A DNA stretch of 64,000 nucleotides from Isoetes taiwanensis (taxonomy: Eukaryota; Streptophyta; Lycopodiopsida; Isoetales; Isoetaceae), in the NCBI GenBank assembly GCA_021234155.1, contig JAJEKV010000096.1, positions 2,603,678-2,667,677 on the forward strand, written 5' to 3'. The first letter of the stretch is position 1. The number at the start of each line of letters is the position of its first letter. Under the pieces are notes generated by a model that was not told where the DNA came from, made no database searches, and saw only the letters and a program-made list of their open reading frames with translations. Below, piece by piece: positions 7,242 to 63,404 of this stretch. The position numbers and the translations under genes are program-made.

Positions 7242-7759
7242 TCAAAGATCTAAGAAAGCAAAGGTGTCATCAGCATATTGGGAAAGAGTAAGAGAGTCGT
7301 CACTGTCAGGCATTTTAAGACCCTTAAGTTCACCAAGGTCCTTGAAATGAATTATAGCCCTTGTGAGCATCTCAGCCACAATCAGAAATAGATAAGGAGC
7401 AAGAGGGCAACCTTGCCTCACACCTCGAGCAAGAGGGAAGAAATGAGAAGGGGATCCATTCAAAATGATAGCAGAGTTGGAGTAGACATTCAAGCCCTGA
7501 ATTAAAAGTCTCAACTTGGGATGAAAACCAATCTTAGACAAAGCAAGGTCAAGGAAATCCCATCTAACAGTATCAAAAGCTTTCTTGAAGTCAAGCTTAA
7601 GAAGAACACAATTTTGGTTGGAGATTCTATTCCAATGAAGACCTTCCATAGCTGTGATATAATTGTCCAGGATAAACCTGTTAGAGAGAAAAGCGATTGA
7701 TGAAGGGAGATGTTTCTCTCAGAGATAATCCTTGATTCTATTAGCAATGATTTTAGCAC
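7242..7759 (-). pseudogene. LINE reverse transcriptase core, broken
   Basis: Encodes the palm of a LINE-type RT. KLDFKKAFDTVRWDFL carries the first catalytic Asp, RGVRQGCPLAPYLF is the conserved RT segment, and QYADDTFAF near 7263-7285 is the YADD box with two catalytic Asp. A second frame (7511-7759) covers the segment just upstream and overlaps it, so at least one frameshift lies near 7640. Further RT sequence on both sides (about 6640-8400) is present only in scattered frames. It would synthesise cDNA at the nicked target, but this copy is not functional. Confidence 0.85.
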
Positions 7760-25815: not shown

Positions 25816-27440
25816 CCTGAGTGTACCTGCAGGTTAGTTGTCGTTTGATCCCATTTATGATGCAAAAATCTTTGAATTTTATTGACAAATATTCACCCCC
25901 ACAGTCTGATCTTATGCACTTTAGCTTTTCACATGCTCTCCATTTCTTTAACGAATTGTTTAAAAGCTGCCAAAGCTTGAGATTTTCTAGTAAGACAATA
26001 ACAAATATACTTCTTGCTATAACCATCTATAAATGAGATGAAGTATCTTTTGTTGGTCATGCTTCTAACATTTAGAGGGCCACACAAATCTGTATGAACT
26101 AGCTCACGTATTCTTTTTGCTCTGTACTTTGATTTTTTAAATGATAGTCTATTAAGTTTGCCAAACATGCATCCTTCACAAATGAATCCTTGCTTCTCTA
26201 ATTCTTTGCATTCTATTTTCTTAGCCAGAATTTTTAAATTGTTGTAGTGTCTGTGAGCTGGACGTTTGTGCCACGGTTCGATGTCATGAGTGTTCACACA
26301 ATTAATGCTATTGCACAAAGAACTTCTCATTTCAAACAAGTTTCTACACTTTTTTGCCAGGAACTTCAATTCATTTCCAATAACTATTTTACATGCTTTA
26401 GAGTCAAAATTGACTCTATATCCCAGATCCACCAATTGGCTAACAGATATCAAATTTTTTATCATGTTGGGAACACACAAGACATTTTCTACATCCACTA
26501 TATTTCCTTGCAAATCTGTTAACTGTAGCAGCCCACTCCTTTCAATCAAATGCAATGCTCCATTTCCAACTTATATATTCTTGGAGTGCACTTGTTTGAT
26601 GTCCTTGAGCAGGTCCACAGATTGAACTACTGATCTCTCAGCTCCATTATCAACTATAAGTGTGCAGCATGATATTAGCTCCAACAAAATCGTCAACAAT
26701 AGGGCAAAAATATATTAACTCATTTTCATCTTCGATGTCCTTTCTTTTCCTTTTCTTTAGCTTGAGCAATATGCACACCAGTCTGCCTTCTTCACCCCGA
26801 CCCCTGCTTGCATTATATCTTCCTCCTCTGTTATCTTTCCCATTACCTCTTTCTTTGTCATAGTCCTTGGGGTAGAACATTTAGCTGCCACATGTCCTTT
26901 ACTACCGCAATTGTAGCAGTTATATTCATTCTTTAATTTAGGTCAATCCCTTTTGAAGTGTTCTGCCTCATGGCAATAATAGCAGTTTCCTTTGCTTCTC
27001 TTGCCAATAAATAGTACTTCAGTAGTGTCAATTTCCTTGAGCATCTCCTTCTGCTCATGCTCAGTCCTCAGTACATTTTTCGCCTCTTCCCTTGTCTTAC
27101 TCATATTCCTTATGAATAGAGCTAGCTGGTCATTTTCACTAACAGACCTTAAAATCAGAACTTGGCTCCTCTCAGATATGTGAACTCCTGCTCCAGCCAA
27201 ATCAGCTACGATGTTGTCAAAATTATAGAAGAAGTCTGACACATCTCCATCTTCTTGTAACCTTAGCCCTCTTAATTCGTTTTCTAACATATCTATTCGA
27301 GAACTTGTTTTCTCTTCGTAATGCTTTAGCAGAAATGACCATGATCAAACATTCAACAGATAAGTCAATGGACCGATAGGGAAGATCTAATGGAGCCAAG
27401 CCCAAACTAAATTTTTCGTTTTCCTTTTTCTTCCACATAG
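25816..27440 (-). pseudogene. Ty1/copia gag, protease and integrase, truncated
   Basis: Order on the minus strand: gag at 26943-27440 (LENELRGLRLQEDGDVSDFF, VHISERSQVL), zinc knuckles CYYCHEAEHFKRD and CYNCGSKGHVAAKC near 26880-26990, and a degenerate protease site (LIVDNGAERS, Asn for the usual Ser) near 26640-26670. The pre-integrase and integrase zinc finger follow at 26150-26555 (PWHKRPAHRHYNNL, GFICEGCMFGK), then core Asp residues in LVHTDLCGPL and IRSDCGGEY. FIDGYSK has Gly where FIDDYS is usual. RT and RNase H are missing; LINE sequence abuts at about 25815. Confidence 0.85.
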
Positions 27441-44400: not shown

Positions 44401-47400
44401 TATCCATCAATCTAGTTATGAGAAAAATCTTCAACTAGAGAACTCTTGTCATCAGAGTGTTTACTGATTAAGGCATCAATGGCCGCTTGATCCCCCGAAT
44501 CCAATGAGAGGTCATCTCCTTCACATGCGTACAGATGGACTTCATTGCATTCTAAAGAAGCTTCTGCAAAACCGAGGATAGATCCCACACTAGTTTCTAC
44601 CCTGGAAGGATGACTCTCCTCTGATCTCTAGGTCGTCTCGATTACATGCTCACTTAGTGGGGGTTTGGGCACTTAAGAACTATTCATACACAATTACAAC
44701 TCATAATACCATAACAATCATCATTGCTTACCAAATAGCCCCATTACACCCAACCAACCAGGTTAGTATACATACAAGCCACAGGCAACATTTCCATATC
44801 TATGCCTAAACATTCTCATCAGCACACAGTGCCTACTCCGGTTCTAACATGCACCCAGGCTGATCAGGCCCTGCGGCCAATACGGGCAGGGTTTGCCTCA
44901 TGTGTACACACCCTTCCATGTTGCGTCCAGCACTGGAGGACCACTTTTGCCATGTAGCGCGACAATCCAGCCAGGATAACAATGCCCGATGTCACGCACA
45001 AACACAACTGCAAGTCCAAGCCCCAGAGACTATGCACTTATGCAATATTTTATTAAGCACATATGTTCCAATACCATTATGATTGCAATCCACGCAATAT
45101 CCAAATATAACTATAATGATGATATCATAATAGAATACAATTCCCCATGCATTTTTCTAACATGTATACCACAATAGAAATGCTGATTCTATATAAGACA
45201 TACCATGCATGCATCTTTTCATGATACAATGCCCATTCTGCTCATGGCATAAGGAACATACAACAATCATAACCAAGTATCTATTTTGCCTAGGGTTTGT
45301 TAGGGAATCTCTAGTCGACCCCTATGTTCAAGGATTCCATTACCAACCATTATACTAAGTTCCAGTATAAGGTACATTGGCACCATTTCCCATTTTATAT
45401 CGTTTCTCGGCAAGGTCTTTTTATCCTTAATTTCTCCCCACGTAAGAAGGTTCTTCCCATTATCTTAAGTGTGTATTAATCTAAGCCAACATTTTGTTTT
45501 CATTAAAAATCTCCTTCCTTACTAAGTTTGTTTAACGATTTCCTACTTGTTAAATTCACGTTCTCTACATTTTGCTATTAATTTGCCTAGAACCCATGCC
45601 TGCACTCATGGTTCTCATGCATCTCCTCGGCCTAGAATCCTCCCAAATCTCCGTAACTAAACCAATTTAGTCCCCATTGCAACCCATGGTATTTTTTTGT
45701 GTATCTTAGTATTTATTTAAAGTTATCATCAGTTTTATTTAGTGTTATTTTATAGGCTGATGCTGACGTTCATCTTCAGCCCTAACAGGTCGTGCCCCCA
45801 ACACCTTCAATGCAGGCCCTATGCCTTCATTTCCTCATACATCTGGCCTCCCAGAGGCCTAACATCCCAAATCGGCCCTTGTGGCCTCAGTTTTGACCCT
45901 AGGAGATCCACCCTCTTTATAAGGGATATGCCACCTGTGTGCATAGGGTAGCCAAAAAACCCCTAGTATACGTGTTTCTAATAGGCAAATTTGACCCCTT
46001 TTCGTATGATTTTATAACTAGAAGAGCCGACCCAAAATCCTATGACCCCTAGTATACATACGAAAAAGGGTAAAAAATTGCCCCCCCCACAAAAAAAAAA
46101 AAGCACGTGGTTTTGACAGGTTCCACAAGGTGATGTCCCTTTGGTTCCGACCTCCTTAGGTCGATTTGGTGCCCTAGCAATACCGTTTGACAGCTCCAGC
46201 TATGGCAGCTCGGCTTCAATCCAGAGTTTATTTGAGCCTCCAGCATTCAAATTTGCCCTTCTAGACCAATTTCAGCCCTTTATCGAGGGCCGGCCCAGGC
46301 ACGCTCGTCCGTTCCTAATCATGCCACAACTCTGTCTTACCCCTGTTTCCAAGCTATCCAACCAGACTTTACCAAGCTCTAGCTCTTCCGGTTAATCCCT
46401 AAACTTATTGAGCATTTCTTTAACATCATATAGCCCTTAAAATCTCCTTTGGTGACCTATCTCGAATCCTCCCGCAATACTAGACAGCCAATACGAATTC
46501 TACAACCTGCTTCCTATAATAATTTTAATTCTTTAATACTTCCATTCTAACCAGATTATTCATACCAATGTTGTTAAAAAACCCGTTTTTTATTTTTAAA
46601 GTACCTCTATAAAAATCCTCACGTTTTTTAAAGGATTTTTATGATTTGGCATGGCCAAAAATAAAAAATAAAGAAATTGCACATTCTTTGCACTGCTTTA
46701 TTGGACATATTTGCTACTGTTAGAATGCACATTTTTGCTACAAGTTATAAGACGTAGCATGCCAACAAGTAAATCAAAAACTTATACTGCTATTAGAAAC
46801 TATTAAGTTCAAGTACATAGATATCATAGCTGTTTTGCCATGCAACTCTTAAGAAAGTTTAGAAAAACACTATTATAGAGGTTAAGAAGTATAAGAATTT
46901 TATATACAAGGATAAATAAGTTCAAGAATATCATATATTTGGTTAAAAAAAAATCATAGCCTAAGGATTTTTAAGGATTTTTAAAGATTTTTAAGGATTT
47001 TTAAGGATTTTAAAGATTTTTAACGTATTTTATATAAAATACGTTTTTAAAGATTTTTTTCAAAAATTTTAAAAATCTTCAAAAAATCTTAAAAAACGTT
47101 TTTTAAACGTACGGATTTTGACGTACTTAACAACATTGATTCATACAAAGCAAGATGCAATTAACTCCATAATTTTTTTATTTAGCCAAGATCAACTTTA
47201 TGCATCCTAACATCAAATGAGTAAGTTGTAAATCACCCACCTGGTTAAGCTTTCTTTGTAGTTGTCTGCTTGGTCTCCAAGCCTCCTTTACAGAAAACTC
47301 CTCCTCAGCAAGTATACTCCCAATGGAAAACTTCAAATTCTCTACAATTTACTATATATAGACCTCCTGTATAAACATCTACATACCATGTATGTGTTTT

Positions 47401-48599: not shown

Positions 48600-50844
48600 T
48601 AGGTGGGCACTTGCCCGTAGTGGTTCACGCGTGTCCTTCACAGGTGCGTGTGTGTGCTACCATCATGAAAGCTTGAGAAGTTATTGGACTGCCTTTTAAA
48701 CACGCTATGGTCACTATGAGTTTGTGGTGATGCCGTTTGATTTACGCGCCTACTACCTTTATGCGATTGATGAACAATGTTTTTAGACCCTTCCTGGGCG
48801 ATTTCATATTGGTGTTCTTTGATGATATTCTAGTTTATTCTAGAACCCTGCAAGAGCATGTGAAGCATGTGAGGTAGGCTTTGAGTATCCTGAAAGAAGA
48901 GAAGTTGTATGGAAAAATGTCGAAATGTTCTTTTGCACCGCATAAATTAGTGTATTTGGGCTTTATAATTTTTGAAGATGGGGTTGCGCCAGATCCCGCA
49001 AAGACAAAAGCTGTGAAAGATTGGCCAATTCCATAGTCTGTGAAGGAAGTAAGAGCTTTTTGGGACTTGTAGGTTACTATCGCAAATTCGTCCCTAAATT
49101 TTCAAATATTGTTGCTCCTCTCACGCCATTGTTGAAGAAAGGGATTAATTTGGCTTGGACGTAGAATTGAAGGAGGCGTTAATTCGAGATCCTATTTCGA
49201 AGACATTTGATATGGATCAGCCCATTCAAGTAGTCACAAATGCCTCTGGAAAAGCTATCGATGGAGCTTTATTGCAGCATGGAAGAGTATGTGCCTATAC
49301 ATCTCATAAATTGTCGCCAGCAGAGTAGAATTATCTAATGCATGATTTGAAGATGTTGGCAATCATACATGCTTTGCATGTATGGAGACACTACCTATTA
49401 GGTCGTCATTTCTCATTGAAGACTAACCATCAGAATCTAAAATTTTTGTGAAGCAGCCACATTTGAATAGGCAGCGAAGTGGATGCAATTGCGAGAAGAA
49501 TACGATTTTGAGATTGAGTATCAGCCGGGCAAGGAGAATGTGATAGCGGATGCTTTATCCCGCAGATCTGTTTTTACCTCTATTAGTATGCTTCAGGGTC
49601 AATGGAATGCTCATCTCATGGATAAAGTGGCACGGGACCCGTATTTTGGGCCGGTGGTTGCCAGTATCAAAAGGGGTCTACCAAGTTTCCACAATACTCG
49701 TTATCTAATGGAGTCTTGTATTACAAGGATCCGACGTGCAGGATGAGGCTCTTGTATGAAGCGCATGATAGTCCATTAGGGGGACATCCCGGGGTGCACA
49801 AGACTCAAAGGAAGGTCAGATAACATTTCTTTTGACGGGGGCAGAAGAAAATGGTTAAAGAGTATGTGGCAAAATGTTTAGAATGCCAGAAAGTTAAAGC
49901 TTCACGATCTAAAGCCCCAGGGGAGTTGCAACCATTGGAAGTTCCTTCATCCATATGGGAATGCATTGGCATTTTGTAGATCTACCTCGAACATGAGTAG
50001 GGTATAATGCCATTTATGTTGTGGTAAACAGATTGATTAAGCAAGCGCATTTTATGCTAACAAAGACGACAATTACAGCTATGGATATCTCCAAGTTATT
50101 TGTCAAAGAATTTTTTAGGTTGCATGGTATGCCAGTACTATTACCTCCGATCGAGACTCAAGGTTCATGAGTAATTTTTGGCAAGGATTGTTCCGGAATG
50201 TGGGAACTAAGTTAAATACTAGCACTGCATACCACCCACAGACAACCGGGCAAGTGGAGCGAGTAAATCAGGTTTTGAAGGATATGCCAAGAATGTATGT
50301 GTTGAGCCAGCCTAAGGCGTGGGATTCCTATTTACATTTGTCAGAGTTTGCATACAATAATACATACCAAGAATCTATCAGGATAAGTCCCTTTGAGGCA
50401 ATGTATAGCAAAGAGTGCCAATGTCCGATGAATTGGAGGGATTCTACTTGCAATGTGGAAATGGCCAATGAGGTAGCCTAGGATTTGGATGCACAATTCA
50501 GGGGGGACTTTGTCAAAATCTTGCAATGGTTCAAAATAGGCAGAAGCAGTATGCAAATAAAAGGCGCAAACCTTTAGAATTCACAGAAGGTCAATATGTA
50601 TTCTTACGGATTAATCCCAAACAGAATAGAATAGAATAGAATAGAACAGAGCTTATTGGCATTTAAAAGTGCGGGGAAGTGGGCTCCGAGGTATGCAGGA
50701 CCCTTTAAGATCCTGGAACGTATCGGGAAAGTAGCTTACAGGTTGGAATTACCCTCGCATGTTAGGGTGCATAATGTATTCCATGTGAGCAACTCGAGGA
50801 AATATGTCTTTGATCCGTCGCATATGCTTGCCGTGATGATTTAG
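48600..50844 (+). pseudogene. Ty3/gypsy RT (C-terminal), RNase H and integrase
   Basis: Plus strand, broken by stops and frameshifts. TRYGHYEFVVMPFDL near 48700 and ILVFFDDILVYS near 48810-48845 carry the RT catalytic [21 protein letters not shown] and [19 protein letters not shown] follow. RNase H begins MDQPIQVVTNASGKAIDGAL, with TNAS in place of the catalytic TDAS. Its EYDFEIEYQPGKENVIADAL segment lies at 49490-49555. The integrase zinc finger (GGHPGVHKTQRK, AKCLECQKVK), core (SDRDSRFMSNFWQGLF, YHPQTTGQVERVNQVL) and C-terminal [20 protein letters not shown] follow. An (AATAG)n tract interrupts the C-terminal part at 50621-50646. It is homologous to, and complementary in coverage with, the minus-strand piece at 43.4-44.4 kb. 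Confidence 0.9.
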
Positions 50845-51040: not shown

Positions 51041-52259
51041 AAAGGAGAGAATGTAAAGAGCCTAGGGTGTTAGCAGACAAGTGATGTAAGTATTTTAATA
51101 CAATTTGGTTATGATTATAAGAGACCATTAAACTAATACTGAGTTGGGGAAAAATACATACATGGTATGCACATGATGTTTATACATGAGGTCTATAAAT
51201 ACTGAATTGTTAGAGGATTTGAAGTTTTTATATTGGAAGTATACTTAGCGAGGAGGAGTTTTTACGTGAAGGAGGCTTGGAGAGCAAAAGCATTAAACAA
51301 GCGCAAAAAAAGCTTAACCAGGTGGGTGGTTTACACCTTACACAGGGGATGTTAGGATGTGTAAACTTGATCTTGAATAAATAAGAAAATTTTGGAGTTG
51401 ATTGCATCTTGCTTTGTATAAATAATCTGGTTAGAATGGAAGTATTAAAGAACTAAAATTATTATAGCAAGCTGAGGTTATGGAATTTTTATTGGGTACA
51501 TCTAGTGGGATAGGTCATTAGAGGAGAATTTAAGGGCTATATGATGTTAAAGAATGTTTAATAAGTTTAGGGATTAACCGAAAGAGCTGGAGCTTGGTAA
51601 AGTCTGGTTGGATAGCTTGGAAGCGAGGGGGTAAAGGCGAGTTGTGGCATGATTAGGAATGGACTGAAGCGGTCGGGCTGGCTGAGAAAGGGCGAAATTG
51701 ATCTAGAAGGGCAAATTTGAATCTTTGGAGGCTCAAATAAACCCGGATTGGAGCCGAAGCTGCCATACTCGAGTCATCAGCGGCATTCGTTGAGAGCACC
51801 AAATCGACTGAAGAGGTCGGGCCGAGGCCACAAGGAACGATTTGGGATGTTAGGCCTCACGGGAGGCCAGATTCTGAAAACGAAGGCATAAGGGCCGTTG
51901 AAGCTATTGGACCCCTTGACCTGTTAGGGCTGAAGATGAATACCCGACAACGACCTACAAAGTAACACTAAATAAATAACTAAGGATAACTTTGAATAAA
52001 CAACACTAAGATACATATAACAATACCATGGGCTGCCATGGATATTAAATTGGTTTAGTTATGGAGATTGGGGAGGATTCTAGGCCGGGAAGATGCATGA
52101 GAACCATGAGCGTAGGCATGGGTTCTATGGAAATTAATAGCAAAATGTAGAGAACGTGAATTTAACAAGTAAGAAATTGTTGAACAAACTTAGTAAGGAA
52201 GGAGAATTTTAATGAAAACAAAATGTTGGCCTAGGTTAATACACACTTAGGTTGATGGG
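51041..52259 (+). mobile_element. Ty3/gypsy LTR, left part, interrupted by the HUH element
   Basis: A polypurine tract (AAAGGAGAGA, 51041-51050) precedes the LTR start TGTAAAGAGCCTAGGGTG at 51052. The LTR runs to GATGGG at 52259, where an unrelated insertion begins; the LTR resumes at 55140. The minus-strand copy near 45440-45460 shows the unbroken sequence. Contains the empty site of the 46.6 kb MITE at 51416-51423. Confidence 0.8.
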
Positions 52260-53039
52260 CTCTAATCAATTCCCGACCATTAGATAGGGGAATATTCCGA
52301 GGGATATGCCCTCTAGTGCGATCCCATCCCTACACCTCATGGGAGATGGGGTCAAGCCCGATGTGGCTCTATTCCTAAGGGGCCGTTGACATCCATTGCA
52401 AGGGATTTTGATGTCAATTGACTTCAAAGTAGCAAGCGCCACTATTCGAACCTTTGAAGCGGGGCGGCTCCTACAACTAAATTAGTAGGCGGTGAGGTTT
52501 CTCCCACAAGCTTCCACGATCTGAGTAGCAAAGCAACCCGAGCAGGTTGGGAGCCATCAAATCAGAGGCTTCTTGACTGCAAAGAGAATGTACAAACAAA
52601 CCGGGGTTTGAACCCCCCGCCAGCGCATTTCGCCATCCTTTTCTTAACTCTCATGTCTGATCATGCAGACAATGAGCAGCCATAACAGAAAGTGACATCT
52701 CCCTCAGGCAAGGAAGAGGAATTACCTAAGTTTCATTGACTTTGCATACGAAATTGCTAATGCACAAAGTGGATGAGTTCAGATTACTAGCAAACACTAC
52801 CTATCAATGAACAGCAACAAGAAGGCAGGGCATGTAAATTCGCCACTGTATAGCAATGAATAGAAAATGAATAAAAAGAAAGCGAGCAGAGCCATACCAT
52901 TGCGGCCGGAGCCGGATAGTGCATGCAGCCCAAAATAGAACACAGAAATAGGCATGGGTCTTAAAATAGGAAAGAGTGCAAGAAAAGCTTCCTGTGTGTG
53001 GCACCACATACCTGAGGCAAGCGTTCACAGCCACCATAG

Positions 53040-53141
53040 AAGCCTGAAGCAGAAGTGCACCTGGAATGAGGACCGCGGTACCGGGGATTGAACCCCTAGC
53101 GCCTTGTCTGCTCAAGCAATCTGCCCGCCCTTAAAGGGCAG
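53040..53141 (-). other. tRNA-like B box and hairpin in the HUH element's 3' part
   Basis: On the minus strand GGGGTTCAATCCCC (53082-53095) matches a polymerase III B box. A similar one, GGGGTTCAAACCCC, lies at about 52602-52616. Just upstream on the minus strand, CTGCCC and GGGCAG (53121-53126, 53136-53141) form a 6 bp stem with a 9 nt loop. No good A box was found, so these could be SINE pieces or part of the element's end structure. Confidence 0.3.
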
Positions 53142-53393
53142 GGGCTATTCCCATGCACATGCACATGCAATCACACCATGTTTTCCCTTAAGTTTTTTTG
53201 GCTGACCTGTAGTCCATTTCCACATCCATTTTTCATTTTTAGTTCCTTTTACGATGCATAGCACACGCCACACAAAAACAACACAATAAGCAAGCAAAGC
53301 ACTTTGTCTAGTTTTGTTCATAACAGACATTGTGGCGCTGGCCAAAGCGTCAATCGCCCGCAACTCCACGAGAAGAAGAGCCCGTCGCGAGAT

Positions 53394-53756
53394 TCATATC
53401 GCGCCCAAGATATCTTTGGCGCTCATCGTGGTGACCTCCACCTCTTCCCCTCCATGTGAGAGGCGACCTCTTCCAATCTTTGCAAAGAAGCCCAAGCTGC
53501 ATCCTAAACAATCGGCCGGAGGCGACCCACGGACTTCGGCGGTGTTAATGTTAACAATGCTTGACACAACATCGAGCAACAACGCACCGCTCCTGTTGGA
53601 GAAGGCAGCGGAGAGGGCCACGGCATTGTGAATCACATCATGGACACTTGGCCCGGGAGGCGGAGGCGTGAGGAGGGAAGATGGGGCCTCCTCATCACTT
53701 TCAATGTTAATGGCGGCATCGGTGGCCTCACCCCAACAAATGCAGCGGGACTGGCG
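53394..53756 (-). CDS. In-frame continuation or second exon of the HUH protein
   Basis: After the TAG at 53757-53759 the same frame stays open for 120 codons to a stop at 53394-53396. It gives an acidic/Pro segment (INIESDEEAPSSLLTPPPPG) and then AVALSAAFSNRSGALLLD and GCSLGFFAKIGRGRLSHG. Splicing is an alternative. CTGCAG followed by GTCTTG at 53878 is a donor-like site, GAATAG ending at 53812 an acceptor-like site, and a different frame then opens with MDRAGGTIGMEIGNGAASA. The downstream part could therefore be a C-terminal domain, a second gene, or decayed sequence. No known family is recognised. GC content matches the Rep region. Confidence 0.4.
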   Translation of the reverse strand, partial: RQSRCICWGEATDAAINIESDEEAPSSLLTPPPPGPSVHDVIHNAVALSAAFSNRSGALLLDVVSSIVNINTAEVRGSPPADCLGCSLGFFAKIGRGRLSHGGEEVEVTTMSAKDILGAI

Positions 53757-54767
53757 CTAGCGGCCCCATTCCCAATCTCCATCCCTATAGTCCCACCAGC
53801 ACGATCCATCTCTATTCAGGCATAATAATTGCAAAGAAAGATGCAAAATCAAAACAAACAAAGACATATGTACAAGACCTGCAGGCAGCCCCCTACAAGT
53901 CACCCAATTGCCATTGTGTAATCCGTACCCTTCCCAATCCGCTGAATGGGCTCCATCCGGTAGGGATCCCATCTCTGACACATCTAACATCGCTTGGCAA
54001 AGCCACTCACGGGTTTGATTGTCGGTGTCGGCGACCTTCACCCTATGCTTTCGGATATAAAGGCAAGTGTTAGAAGGAAGGATCCAGCTAGTAGACAACA
54101 CAAATTTACCGGTTCTAAGCATCCTAGTGATTGTGTATACAAGGCTAGAGCTCAGATGCCTTCCACCATGATAGTTTACAAAATGAAGAGCCCTTCCCAA
54201 GAGGTTCCTGTTATCCAGAACTACCACATGCTTAATGTCTCCTGCACCATACAGCAAGTACAGGTCCTTCCCCATCTCCAATTGGCGCTCGGAAACATTC
54301 TTTGTGTGCAGCTTGAAGTGGGGCTTCCTCATATCCTTCATGCAATACCCTATTAGCCCCTCAAAACAATGGAGCTTCGTATTTCTTAATGCCTTGCAAA
54401 TAAGAACAACCCCCACAGGCTTCTTACCTCCCCACCCAAACCTGCGCTTCATGGCCAAATTGACTACTCTAGGGGACTTCAGAGCAAGCCTAAAGACACA
54501 TTGGTAATGCAGGTGGTCTAGGTCACTCCCCCTCTCCGCTGCAACAGCACCTGACACACAATCCTCCTGACAGAACTTAATCAGCATGTCATAGAACTCT
54601 GGGGGTGCATCCTTGCCTGCCACACCCAGGGTAACACTGACGTCTATGAGGCCTATGCCTTCATCCTCAAGGCCATCTCTGCATGCCTCTATAGTAGACC
54701 TGCCAGAAGAAGACTCTGGTTGCCCATTCCTGCCTGCCCGCCCTGCTCTTCTAGCATCCCTCCTCAT
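53757..54767 (-). CDS. Rep/HUH endonuclease with one tyrosine (Replitron-1-like transposase)
   Basis: 336 residues from the ATG at 54765-54767. The frame is open upstream to about 55049, but without a suitable ATG before residue -64, and a TTTCTTTCC stretch precedes this ATG. Residues 1-14 are Arg-rich. IDVSVTLGV (41-49) matches the first Rep strand. DLDHLHYQCVF (83-92) carries the HUH pair (His85, His87) that binds the metal. FEGLIGYCMKDMRKPHF (135-151) carries the catalytic Tyr141 and Lys144 (YxxK). A second domain follows (about 165-290) with VVVLDNRNLLGRALHFVNYH and MLRTGKFVLSTSWILPS. Such proteins nick one DNA strand and stay joined through the Tyr. There is no helicase domain, unlike Helitron, geminivirus and circovirus Reps. 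All catalytic residues are intact. The stop at 53757-53759 may be a mutation, because the frame continues open beyond it. Confidence 0.75.
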   Translation of the reverse strand: MRRDARRAGRAGRNGQPESSSGRSTIEACRDGLEDEGIGLIDVSVTLGVAGKDAPPEFYDMLIKFCQEDCVSGAVAAERGSDLDHLHYQCVFRLALKSPRVVNLAMKRRFGWGGKKPVGVVLICKALRNTKLHCFEGLIGYCMKDMRKPHFKLHTKNVSERQLEMGKDLYLLYGAGDIKHVVVLDNRNLLGRALHFVNYHGGRHLSSSLVYTITRMLRTGKFVLSTSWILPSNTCLYIRKHRVKVADTDNQTREWLCQAMLDVSEMGSLPDGAHSADWEGYGLHNGNWVTCRGLPAGLVHMSLFVLILHLSLQLLCLNRDGSCWWDYRDGDWEWGR

Positions 54768-55139
54768 GGAAAGAAAACAAGCAGAAGAAGGAAGAACAGA
54801 AGGGAATGAAGCAAACCTGGTTAATATACGCAAGGCGCCTCCAAGGTGACGATTTATACACAGAAATCTGGCCGGATTCCCCATCTTATCCACAACCACG
54901 TCGCCAGGAACGGCAAGCGTGGCCTTCCAAACATAGCGCCCCGAGCTAGTTGGGCACATCCGCGAATACAGTCTGCCCACTAAACCTAACCATTGCTGAA
55001 TGCACCCCAAATGAAAAACAGTCGAAAATGGCAAAGATTCCCTTATGCCCCATTCATGTACACTTTTCTATACAATACACCCTAATAACCATTACAACCT
55101 CATGTTACAAACATACCCTTTTATGAACTAGCAAACTAT

Positions 55140-56275
55140 ATGGGACGAACCTTTTTAGGTGGGGAAAAATTAATGGGTAAAAAGATCTTGCCGGGAGAAA
55201 TCGCATTAAATGGGAAATGGTACTAGTGTACCTTATATTGGAACTTAGTATAATGGTTGGTAATGGAATCGTTGAACATGGGGGTCGACTAGAGATTTCC
55301 TAACAAACCCTAGGCAAAATAGAGACTTTGTTATGATGGTTCTATGTTCCTTATACCATGAGTAGAATGGGCATTGTGTCATAAAAAGATGCATGCATGG
55401 CATGTCTAATGTGGAATCGCATTTCTATTAGAGAAAGGCATGGAGAATTGTATTCTATTATGATATCATCATTATGGTTATATTTGGATATTGCATGGAT
55501 TGCAATCATAATGGTATTGGAACATATATGCTTAATAAAATATTGCATAAGTGCATAGTCTCTTGGGGCCGGAGTCCTTGTGCGGTGGCTTGGACTTGCG
55601 CTTGTGTTTACGCGTGGCATTGAGCTTTGTTATCCTGGCTGGATTCTTTGTCGTGCTACATGGAAAAAGTGGTTCTCAGTCGTTGGATGCGGCATGGAAG
55701 GGTGTGTACACATGAGGACCTCCCCTCCCCCCCCCAGCTCTGTGGTCCGGATCAGCCCGGATGGCATGTTAGAACTGGAGTAGGCACTGTATGATAATGA
55801 GAATTAAGCATGCATATGGAAATGTTATCTGTGGCTTGTATGCATACTAACCTGGTTGGTTGGGTTTAGTGGGACTATTCGATAAGCAATGATGATTGTT
55901 ATGGTATTATGAGTTGTAATTATGTATGAATAATCCTTAAGTGCCCCAAATCCCCACTTAGTCTTTAGGACTAATCCCCAGGTTGGTGTAACCAGTACCT
56001 GATGGAGCCGAGTACAGTAATGCCACAGAGACCTGAGGATCAGAGAGTTGGAGACAAGATCAGGCGTGAGGAGGTGTCTAGATTTCCTTTACGAATTGGA
56101 GGACGAGGCTAGTGAGCATGTAACCGAGACAACCCAGAGATCAGAGGAGAGTCATCCTTCCAGGGTAGAAACTAGTATGGGATCTACCCCTAGTTTTTGT
56201 GGCCATAAATGCCTTAATGAGCGAACCCTCTGATGAAAAGAGTTCTCTAGTTGAAGATTTTTCTCATAACTAGCA
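55140..56275 (+). mobile_element. Ty3/gypsy LTR right part and leader (plus)
   Basis: Resumes the LTR after the HUH insertion and matches the minus-strand 45460-44405 throughout. It keeps about 150 bp that the minus copy lacks (55970-56110), including an ATG at 56022 opening MPQRPEDQRVGDKIRREEV, probably the start of gag. Homology ends at 56275 (TTTTTCTCATAACTAG), next to the protease position in the other copy. Because integrase sequence lies upstream of this LTR and gag-leader sequence downstream, the arrangement is like two tandem elements sharing one LTR. Confidence 0.7.
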
Positions 56276-56825
56276 ATTGTATTGATTCTATAATGGGGCT
56301 CGCATGAAAATGACAAAAACCTCCGATAGATAGGCTTCTCATTCATCTAGCAGATTTTCTACAATGGTGGATAGTGGATAGCCGCACACATGCGAACCAC
56401 CCACGAAGAAAAATAAAAAGAATGTCCAATTATACAACTTGGACCCCAGAAAATACAATGCTACTAGATGTTTGGTTTGTGTACCTGCCGAAAGCTTATC
56501 ACGGGGATTAAAAAACCCTGCCCTTTCGGGTTTTCGAGGAAAAACCCTAGTGATAAGGCTTTGACAAGGGGCTTAGACAAATGTAAGGCTGAGAAATTGC
56601 TCCTAAAAAACCCACGAATGGAGAAGTCGAAGCGGCTATCACTTACCAACCTGTACCTGCACATCACCAACACTAGAACAAATGTGAAAAAACAAACCTC
56701 CCAAAGTGGAGAGGCTGATCACGCGTGCCACACAACAACAAAAGAGAAACCACTTCAAATAGAGGGTCTAGTCACGCGTGTCACGCGACAAATACATTAA
56801 ACAATTAAGGGCGGGGAAGGTGGGC
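56276..56825. repeat. Repeat fragments
   Basis: 56283-56345 matches the first part of the 375 bp repeat (GGGGCTCGCATGAAAA, GACAAAAACCTCC). 56491-56555 is another copy of the dispersed repeat seen at 16.6 and 48.3 kb (CTGCCCTTTCGGGTTTTCGA, minus). Open frames at 56464-56800 cover these repeats and show no domain. Confidence 0.5.
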
Positions 56826-57380
56826 TTCAGAGAAATAGAGAATAAGATACTGCTGAGAGAGAAGAGGAAGCGCCGATGAGATGTTGATGAAGAACCTCGC
56901 CTAATATAGCGATCTCCCAACTAGAGAAAGCATTGAATGCATGCATGCGAGACATGCATGCTCGCTCCTTCTAGAATCTCGATCCGAGGGCTTGGGTTGA
57001 TGGGATTCTAGAACGGGGCTCACATGAAAACGACAAAAACCTCCCAAATAGAAGAGAACTTCCTTATAAAAATGGGATCGTGGGTGAAGGTCAAAGGATT
57101 ATGGCCAAAGAAGAGGCAAAGGAGAAAATGCCTGAAAGATGAAAGAAACGCCAAATTGGTCAATCCAAGCAAGGAGAAGCCCATCCCCTGCATAGCTTCA
57201 GAGAATAAAGAATAAGGTATACTGCTGAGAGAGAAGAGGAAGCGTCGCTGAGACGTTGATGAAAAACCTCGCCTAATATAGCGATCTCCCAACTAGAAAA
57301 AGCATGCAATGCATGCATGCGAGACATGCATGCTCACCCCCTCTGGAATCTCGATCCAAGGGCTCGGATCGATGGGATTG
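56826..57380. repeat. ~375 bp palindrome repeat: half copy plus full copy
   Basis: 56826-57000 is the second half of the unit and 57001-57380 a full unit. They join through GGATTCTAGAACGGGGCTC. Both keep the hairpin GCATGCATG-CGAGA-CATGCATGC (56939-56961 and 57311-57333). Minus-strand peptides LGDRYIRRGSSSTS (34.9 kb) and MGDRYIRRGFSSTS (57.2 kb) correspond but have no known family. Confidence 0.7.
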
Positions 57381-58003
57381 TGGTTTTAGTGTCTTGGAAT
57401 TTTGAATGTATGTACATATATTATATGATTTATTTTCAACACTTGTTGAATGTTAATGAACAAAGATTTGATTCTTCACCATGATGTACAATGTATAAGA
57501 ACTTGCATCAATCTCTAAGGAGCTCCAACCACCCTGTGTAAATGTGTTAATATCAAGTGTGTAAAAGGAGATGATCCCAAGCTGCCTCAGAGAGGCCAAC
57601 TTGGCAAGCCCGTTACAATTTCCTAGTTAGCCTGGCCACACTATGACCCACTGCAAAATTCTGTCCATTTCTATGAATATCAAACTTCTACCAATGCCAT
57701 TAAAGATGCACTATCGATCTCTTAGAATTAACTACTTAAATGATCAACGAGGCATACCATTGTTGGTGCTTCAACAAAGCTAATGTTGGATTCATAATCA
57801 CCAGTTAGCATAAGTTTGTAATCTCCAAATAAAGTGATTTATAATAAATGTTTAACCTGTACTTGCGTGCTCTATATGGTTTTTTGTTGAACTTCTAGGA
57901 GGCGTTGCCTTTCTTTAAATATCTCTAAGAAGGTTTGCCTTTTGGTTCGTTCTCCTTCAATCTTATTCAAAGTGCATTATCTATAGTACACCCAGAATAG
58001 TGT
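57381..58003. other. Intergenic
   Basis: AT-rich; nothing recognisable. Confidence 0.4.
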
Positions 58004-58166
58004 CTTGGTCGTTAGTCTAGTGGTAACACATTAGTTTTAGCAACTATAGGTCTCGAATTCGAGACTGCCCAGAATTGCATTCTGAGCTGTTGGGCGTCTC
58101 ATAGATGCAATGTAAAGTGGTTGGGGGCAGAGCCCTACTGCTAGTTGTTTTTTTTTTTTTTTTTTT
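58004..58166 (+). mobile_element. tRNA-derived SINE with poly(T) tail
   Basis: A box TAGTCTAGTGG (58013-58023), B box GGTCTCGAATT (58049-58059), body CTGAGCTGTTGGGCGTCTC, and a 3' T run of 18-19 (58148-58166). A T-tailed tRNA SINE is the form of plant Au-type SINEs. No TSD was identified. A fragment of the same family lies at 47970. Confidence 0.75.
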
Positions 58167-60345: not shown

Positions 60346-61248
60346 CCAAAGTGGAACACGGTCACTGAAGCACAAGAGCATAGGAGCACAAGAGCCACAT
60401 GGCGTTGGTGCCATCACTTCACCCAGAAACTAACCACATATCACCCAAAAACAAAAACAAAACCAGCTGCGATCACCTCGATACTATTTTTACCGCATAA
60501 TAGAATGTGTTGCTCTAGAAGTCACCCCAACCTAAATAAAAAACAACTAAACAACAAATACAAAAACCAATGCAGCTTCGTGTAAATGACCGTTCATACA
60601 GTTTCTCCACAGCAATCTATATTTTTATTAAAGCCTAGGCATCAATGCCATAACTATGCTCATAGCCAACTAAGTGATAATAGCTTGAGTTATTGCCGGC
60701 CTATGATTTTCATGATCCATAACCATGAGCCATAGATCAATAGATGCATTGGTACCAAGCACTTCTACTAGCTAAAAAAATGAAAGCATTATTTGCCATA
60801 AATCCATCAATGGAAGAAACTCATTAGCTTCAATTATCTTAATATCTGACTCATGGGAGAGATGCAGTCGTGATTCTGGGTTGTGGTTCAAAGGATGTAT
60901 CCCCTCTGATATAGAAGCATACACATGAGAAGCAAAAAAAAGGGTCAAGGACCTAGACTTCTTTGAAGTCTCGGATACTTTTTTATGAGAGTAACCAGGA
61001 GTAATAACACTCCGACACACTAGATAGTATGTCATCTACATTACAAACACTTAAAAAGAAAAAAAAAAAGAAAAAAAAGAAAAGGGGAACTAGCAAGCAG
61101 CACACCAGAAGGCTTTAGCAAGGTAAACCTTATTAGGTTTTTATTTAGGCTTGGTATCACAATGTCTTAATGGAGCTAAATCTAATCTGATTAAGCAAGA
61201 AATGGTGTGATAAGATTGTGGTTGTGAAAAATTGTATTCTTTTAATGT
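60346..61248. other. Intergenic
   Basis: No gene is recognised. Frames at 60337-60585 and 60772-61035 have no domain. An A-rich tract lies at 61055-61085. Confidence 0.35.
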
Positions 61249-62272
61249 TTTTTTTTTGAAGGACGACAAACGTTATTGAAACTCCAAGCCAAAAAGCAAA
61301 ATACAAATGCAGAGGCGGGAATAAAGTCTCAGAGGATAATCATGATCCACTGAGTAGAACCACCAGCCTATGCATAAGACAACACACTCAAATAGGACTC
61401 AAATATCAATTGTCGCTAAGGGGAGCAAGCGCGAAGAAATGGTAAGCCTTAACAAATTCTAGCTTGTGCGTCTTGGGAGGACAAGCTGCCGGGAGGAATA
61501 TCAAACCACGAAAGATAGGCGGTCAAGCGCCTTCGGATGGACCATAACAACCATCCACGATGCTAAATGAAATGCTTGGCTCCATAACTTATTCCAAGTA
61601 TCGGATAGGCGACCCGGAAGCACTTCGACTTGTCAATGTCACATGAAAAAGAAAGCGACCAAGACCAAACAGTGGAGATGAACACATAAAAGAAACAATG
61701 CTCAATGGTCTCACCGTCCCTTTTTTGCACAGTGCGATTAGGAGTCTTTGACACTCGAGGATCAAATCGTGGACAAGCACGTTCACACGAGGACATCGTG
61801 AAGAATCGCCACCAAAGCACGACCACCTTAGGATGAAGTAGTTTATCCCAAGCCCAAGTCCACATCGTCTCCAATTAGGAGGTGAAAGCTGAAGGGACCA
61901 CCTAGTGGATGGCGGAAGGATATCACTATTGACAAGCAACCTATACATAGAATTCACAAGCCTATGCTCATGAATACTCTGGTGGGAAACCCACATGCAC
62001 CCTTCAATAGCCTCTGGAGCAACCAATGGCAGAGTACTAGCAACCTTTTGCCAAATAGGTTTGTCCCATCGAGACAATGAGAATTTTGTTTGAAAGATTT
62101 GCCATGTCGCTAACTGGCCAGAATTATACCATGCCGCAACTGTCAAGATTCCTGCTAACCTCCAGCGCCGTTGAGTTAATGGATGAACCGAGGCACAAAG
62201 TGGAAGATTATTTTCCACAGGTATCCACCAACAAGGGGCATTCAGCTGATGACATGCAACAAATGTAGTCAT
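61249..62272 (-). pseudogene. LINE 3' part with zf-RVT region (same family as 135-638)
   Basis: A minus-strand frame from 62272 gives an RT C-terminal region (WYNSGQLATWQIFQTKFSLS). It is broken by a frameshift near 61860, after which WDKLLHPKVVVLWWRFFTMS and DGETIEHCFFYVF match the zinc-binding region. The final 350 bp match the 135-638 element, down to GGACGACAAACGTTATTGAAA by the T run (about 61249-61257), the poly(A) tail on the other strand. The 5' end is truncated at about 62.27 kb. No TSD could be settled. Confidence 0.8.
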
Positions 62273-63404
62273 CGAACGGTTTGTATTTGCAAAAATCTGG
62301 AGCCATTTTCTTGTTTGGATTTTTTTTGTATTAGTAGATCCTTTGCTTTAAGTTTCTCGATTGGATTATATACTTCTTCATAGTTAGTCTGCACGTTATC
62401 GAGTATATTGTGATATGCTTGTGTTCCTGTTTGGCTTGTACCTAATTGAACATTTGGACTTTTATTTTTGTTGTTTGTTAAACAATACCTATTGCATGTG
62501 TGTCATGGGAATGAGATGTCTAGTAGTTGTTTCTATTTTTGCAAATGGTTGTATGTTAGAACTCTCTATGTTGAGAACTCTCTATGAAAATGTGAATTGC
62601 AATGGGATCCACCTTAGCAACAAACCTCCACACATGATCATGAAGGCATTATTTGCATCTCTGGTTAAAGAGATGCTCATTTACAAATTGGTCATTCCGT
62701 AAGAAACACACTTACCATAAATGAGCTAAGCCTAGGCAAACTTGAACTCGCAAAACTCATGGTTTTTTACTTTCTCATAATTTTATTGTTAAGAAATCTA
62801 TGCTGTTTATTTTTTTAAGTAGTACATATTTTTGCATAAAAAAGGAAATCATTTACGATGTTTTGCCTTTCTCCATCAGACGTTCTATTTCCTTGGTACA
62901 ATCTTTTATGGTTATATTTTAAAGCAATACATATTTCTGCATGAAAAATAGAACGACCTAGGATGTTTTGCCTTTCTCCATGCATGGAAGCATTGCAACA
63001 CAAATTGTATGTTCATCTAGAAAATGCAAAAGAAGATGTGCAAAATAATGTAGATGGACTTCGACTATATATGCAAGTAGAAGACTGCATGTTTAGATCA
63101 TCAAATTTTGATTAAGGACAATGAGTGTCATGCCTCGGATGCATAGCATGCAATTGTCAAATTGAATTAAAAAAGACACTAAGTCAATTAAGCTCAGTAA
63201 TGTGATATAGAATGAGTATGTCGCATGCAAACAGTTACATTGCGAGTCTTTTGATTTAAGACACGGTAATTTGTTCTTTGTCTATTGATCCAGGCAATTA
63301 CAGTTATTAAGCTAGACAATCCTAGACAATAAGATCCAGACAATCCCATATACAAGAGAACATTTCTTACTTGAAACCTAGTTGATTCACGGCCACGAAC
63401 GATT
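62273..63404. other. Intergenic
   Basis: No gene is recognised. A motif, GATGTTTTGCCTTTCTCCAT, occurs twice (62858-62877 and 62958-62977) within a diverged ~100 bp tandem duplication (62820-63000). Confidence 0.35.

Follow-up and report, generated by a model that had tools for sequence, protein, structure and literature searches.

The 64,000-nucleotide stretch of Isoetes taiwanensis DNA analysed here (the window) contains, with a probability of about 0.93, a Replitron of this quillwort, a lycophyte. The element occupies positions 52250–55141 on the reverse strand, and its predicted transposase combines an N-terminal single-tyrosine HUH nuclease with a conserved C-terminal region. Sequence comparison establishes the family and the ends of the element, shows that the catalytic residues are present and that selection is purifying, and reveals empty sites, with short duplications at some of them. 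Replitrons were reportedly first described by Craig in 2023 (PNAS 120:e2301424120), and the 2021 repeat annotation of the I. taiwanensis genome is presumably older than their name. According to an excerpt of PMC10741241, the hallmarks of Replitrons are an HUH transposase, the absence of terminal inverted repeats and a length of 0.9–4 kb, together with target site duplications of 2–8 bp and direct terminal repeats of 5–11 bp. The same excerpt records Replitrons from seed-free plants, lycophytes among them. The initial annotation had presented the locus, if confirmed, as a plant example of a little-studied transposition mechanism. A Replitron is indeed present in a lycophyte genome, but it is a member of a kind already reported from such plants, and the value of the find lies in the copy number and the empty sites.

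The open frame P0001 (53757–54767, reverse strand) reads 336 residues from its ATG, of which only residues 1 to about 245 belong to the true frame. It lies in a stop-to-stop run of 436 codons (53760–55067), against a longest run of 243 codons in 500 first-order shuffles of 52001–57000. Residues 45–170 (54258–54635, reverse strand) constitute an HUH endonuclease domain that matches Pfam PF21859 (Replitron_HUH) over profile positions 2–127 of 128, with an E-value of 2.7e-15 and 57.3 bits against a cut-off of 28.5 bits; the E-value becomes 6e-16 when this piece is scanned by itself. The HLH motif (residues 85–87; 54507–54515, reverse strand) provides His85 and His87 as presumed metal ligands, and the YCMK motif (YCxK; residues 141–144) provides the presumed nucleophile Tyr141, whose codon lies at 54345–54347 on the same strand. 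Both assignments draw on the sequence and on conservation among paralogs. Judged by sequence alone, a single conserved tyrosine motif follows the HUH motif, and P0001 retains all three residues of the active site, as had been proposed. The frame coordinates and motif positions given in the initial annotation were reproduced, and its assignment to the HUH/Replitron kind is borne out by the family profile, which matches P0001 and each of 13 aligned paralogous proteins.

That alignment comprises nine proteins of the window's family and four others at 54–61% identity. His87, Tyr141 and Lys144 are present in all 13 proteins and His85 in 12, the sole exception being L012, in which His85 is replaced by Arg. 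A second conserved region covers residues 171–245 (54033–54257, reverse strand) in the true frame, and the peptides previously quoted for a second domain fall inside it (residues 181–232). The Pfam scan detected no PF21860 (Replitron_C) in the frame of the window copy, and two of the 13 proteins matched this profile weakly at E ≤ 1, under the cut-off; the C-terminal piece of L031 scored 15.3 bits against a cut-off of 27. Likewise, the three pieces neighbouring the HUH piece gave nothing reaching a curated Pfam cut-off. Weak matches under the cut-off to zf-rbx1 upstream of the frame and to Terminase_6C in one of the 13 paralogs were taken as chance. No homologues were scored in the protein collection with the whole frame, with a denser search using the conserved part or with the 13-member alignment, and no relatives were found among PDB sequences, PHROGs or viral contigs. 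Single-sequence AlphaFold models yielded pLDDT values of 32.6 (residues 1–291) and 41.0 (residues 37–175), too low for a fold search.

The HUH chemistry of this family relies on a metal held by two histidines and on a tyrosine that cuts single-stranded DNA, keeps the 5′ phosphate and joins it to the target. In the Isoetes element, His85 and His87 would hold the metal ion, while Tyr141 would attack single-stranded DNA at the element end and stay on the 5′ phosphate. The Tyr141-bound strand would then be handed to a target nick, with unwinding and fill-in presumably performed by host enzymes. The bacterial IS200/IS605 transposases are also single-tyrosine HUH enzymes, and Y1 chemistry on single-stranded DNA is presumed to be common to both; they differ from the Isoetes element in belonging to another family with no sequence match to it and in inserting without target duplication.

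Helitrons are eukaryotic HUH transposons whose Rep carries two tyrosines and a fused helicase. The possibility that the element is a Helitron relative or fragment, and hence a rolling-circle transposon with Rep and helicase, draws on the HUH chemistry and eukaryotic host that the two have in common. It is extremely improbable: only Replitron_HUH exceeds its cut-off, and the element boundaries marked out by the empty site do not look like Helitron-type ends. The lack of a helicase noted in the initial annotation was confirmed, with no match in the scanned pieces of the element or in the 13 paralogous proteins. The Isoetes element carries one conserved tyrosine motif, and short duplications accompany it at some sites, whereas Helitrons are described in the excerpt of PMC10741241 as leaving no target duplication. 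An integrated Rep gene of a single-stranded DNA virus would equally account for an HUH nuclease in which a tyrosine is the candidate catalytic residue, but its probability is negligible, considering the many dispersed copies with non-coding ends in common, the empty sites, and the absence of matches to viral Rep families (Pfam, PHROGs) or viral contigs. Pfam and PHROGs gave no match to a helicase, to a capsid protein or to any other viral family in the scanned pieces, which span the element up to its 3′ 1.1 kb, where the longest frame has about 110 codons.

The Replitron is one of many in this genome. A tblastn search with P0001 gave 4094 candidates, and the 120 that were scored yielded at least 126 match rows, a lower bound that includes a few second pieces of one gene. 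In the PF21859 profile search, all 150 scored loci (from 2165 candidates) were above the cut-off, again a lower bound, and none of 14 control genomes contained a locus above it. The genome of 1.66 Gb thus holds at least 150 HUH loci in at least three families, the others being 54–61% identical to that of the window. The whole frame of about 332 residues, starting from the same Met, is kept in nine of 20 fetched close paralogs, while in the rest the frame is interrupted or partly missing; L020 has Ile at the start Met. Among ten copies of the window's family (45 pairs), dN/dS ranges from 0.08 to 0.50, values that are biased downward because nine of the copies were chosen for open frames. The window copy entered this comparison with its first 234 codons, over which its dN/dS against the other nine is likewise 0.08–0.50. 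These values indicate that the transposase of the window's family is under purifying selection. Such selection on open frames would also be expected of a domesticated, immobile host gene derived from a Replitron. This origin is very unlikely in view of the high copy number, the termini common to unrelated flanks, the empty sites and the frameshift in the window copy. At one locus (L016; G000:C1027:6359400-6369300), two Replitron copies lie in opposite orientation with about 3 kb between them.

The initial annotation regarded the frame as intact, a view that the paralogs contradict. Their frame continues beyond residue 245 and closes with ...LDTTDYTMAIG before the stop codon, for a total of about 332 residues, and therefore residues 246–336 of the window copy (53760–54032, reverse strand) are not protein but a wrong-frame read-through with no real domain. 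The tblastn matches stop near residue 246, which suggested an intron at that point; this idea was ruled out, as was a longer protein beyond the TAG at 53757, by the uninterrupted frame of the paralogs to ...TMAIG. At 53925–53927 (reverse strand), the window copy misses about 131 nt found in paralogs: relative to position 53926, 19 of the 20 close paralogs (L009–L028) have 130–135 extra nt, and L017 has about 379. A second gap lies near 53195, where 82–86 extra nt are present in at least 15 of the 20 and the remaining five are not separable. Compared with L009 and L010, the window copy shows 5–10 differences per 200 nt in the first 400 nt from the gene 5′ end, 2–3 differences per 200 nt and no indels between nt 400 and 1000, and many substitutions plus indels beyond nt 1000. 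The conserved triplets most often altered in the window copy are CTG (59%) and CAG (49%), against an overall 25% that is itself raised by two gaps. The surplus of altered CAG/CTG sites and indels relative to the paralogs is located at 53100–54060 and resembles uncorrected nanopore error at CHG sites; L024 shows the same type of change.

This CAG/CTG pattern could stem from nanopore error left unpolished at CHG-methylated sites, the link to methylation being presumptive. The apparent damage may then be an assembly error over a real copy that is intact, which would be compatible with the element being a Replitron. The contrast between the indel-free nt 400–1000 and the indel-rich remainder, together with the preferential alteration of CTG and CAG, speaks for such an error, and an excerpt of PMC8566536 describes the assembly as based on Nanopore reads, with racon and pilon used for polishing. 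On the other side, the copy also lacks two stretches, one of about 131 nt and one of about 83 nt. We regard an assembly error as a serious possibility at somewhat less than even odds; true decay of the window copy is also possible. Nanopore-assembled repeats may contain false frameshifts, possibly elsewhere in the I. taiwanensis assembly too.

The ends of the Replitron are defined by their recurrence in paralogs with different flanks and by the absence of the element from an empty site. In the window copy, the gene 5′ end is on the right (ATATAGTTTGCTAG...) and the 3′ end on the left (...CCCATCAACC), where the edge can be placed only to within about 10 bp (52250–52260). The length of 2892 bp, like the 2.4–3.5 kb of other copies, is in the Replitron range of 0.9–4 kb. 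The gene 5′ end is sharp across the examined subgroups, with the L030/L032 family left out, and reads ATATAGTTTG, ATAAGCTG or similar. The 3′ end is less regular, reading ...CATCAACC or ...ACG, then ATAA(T), in many copies. In family 3, the gene 5′ end is ATAATGTGTCC, with TTAATG in one of seven copies; ATAAT occurs at the 5′ end in six of seven copies and after the 3′ ...ACG in four of the six seen, the exceptions being L046, which stops earlier, and L048, which differs. The terminal direct repeat of the window's family is only ATAA or TAA, and some of these bases may belong to the target. Terminal inverted repeats were not found in the window copy, where the longest inverted match between 52240–52329 and 55070–55159 is 6 nt and lies off the tips. 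The idea that the 3′ end forms a conserved hairpin was rejected as unproven: none of its 8 pairs is changed on both sides, and z-scores in five copies range from −2.96 to +1.38. The Isoetes element resembles described Replitrons in its PF21859 HUH transposase, lack of terminal inverted repeats, length, short target duplications and seed-free plant host, but differs from them in its weak PF21860 matches and in terminal direct repeats that we read as 3–5 bp, at or below the reported 5–11 bp.

The repeat surrounding the element in the window has a paralog without the Replitron at 44412–45862 (reverse strand), recognised by alignment to the flanks. Positions 52005–52259 and 55140–55962 match one continuous paralog at 45710–44652, and therefore the Replitron entered that repeat; its right part (55142–56273, forward strand) matches 45460–44412 in pieces. 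The interrupted repeat is thought to be a Gypsy-type LTR because of an integrase-like frame at 50119–50478, which was recognised by eye and has no Pfam match. Comparison with the empty site points to ATGGG at 52255–52259 and 55140–55144 (both forward strand) as a possible 5-bp target duplication. It is uncertain because the left ATGG, which may be element sequence, is also present in paralogs at other sites, and the loss of a few bases at insertion is an uncertain alternative reading of this site.

Other insertions were compared with empty sites in the same way. The only clean case is the duplication of CATG(A) at L011 and L022, for which the window provides two empty copies, near 245 and 61645. 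The two insertions probably represent one event because their flanks are shared. They lie about 8 kb apart (G000:C1063:4112300-4130600) in what is probably a duplicated segment, with flanks 93–98% identical. The repeat that they interrupt is present in the window in two copies, at 131–640 and 61248–61901; inspection by eye suggests that the frames at 77–430 and 61592–62347 encode the C-terminal portion of a LINE protein, the latter having no Pfam match. L025 exceeds the four empty sites compared with it by 8 nt, and L026 exceeds its two by 9 nt, the duplication being imperfect in both; the paralogs of L026 diverge further downstream. Six identical nt flank L020 on either side, seen without an empty site, and searches spanning the junction gave no match for either L020 or L028. 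In a permutation test on 12 copies, from which L022 was omitted because of the flanks shared with L011, own flank pairs aligned better than permuted ones (P = 0.019), weakly above chance; the own partner ranked best only for L011 and second for L020, and the window copy ranked worst. A strict model derived from the junctions alone, with a cut at TAT and no target duplication, was dropped when the empty sites gave 8–9 extra nt.

The roughly 4–9 extra nt at the three insertions with empty sites are probably target duplications. Acting by itself, a single-tyrosine HUH enzyme is not expected to duplicate its target, and therefore a second, staggered cut or some repair step would have to contribute; the simplest guess is a second offset nick or a displaced flap that is repaired. 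We propose only tentatively, and with more doubt than belief, that Isoetes Replitrons regularly duplicate about 4–9 bp next to ATAA(T) through such a staggered cut or repair, unlike Helitrons and bacterial Y1 transposons. If this regularity holds, empty sites within one genome would reveal the rule directly. Because open frames are numerous and empty sites can be located, the quillwort genome is a good place to learn how single-tyrosine HUH transposons choose targets and ends.

The window also contains other repeats. A LINE-type reverse transcriptase fragment is located at 7245–7718 (reverse strand; PF00078, E-value 4.5e-19) and a Copia-type fragment at 25932–26570 (reverse strand; PF13976, E-value 2.5e-7). 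Rfam and tRNA scans of the window gave no matches. By eye only, a SINE-like unit of tRNA origin was recognised at 58001–58160 (forward strand); it has motifs resembling an A box and a B box and ends in a run of T. Tandem arrays that are large and imperfect, their units measuring about 45 to 220 bp, extend over 858–2969.
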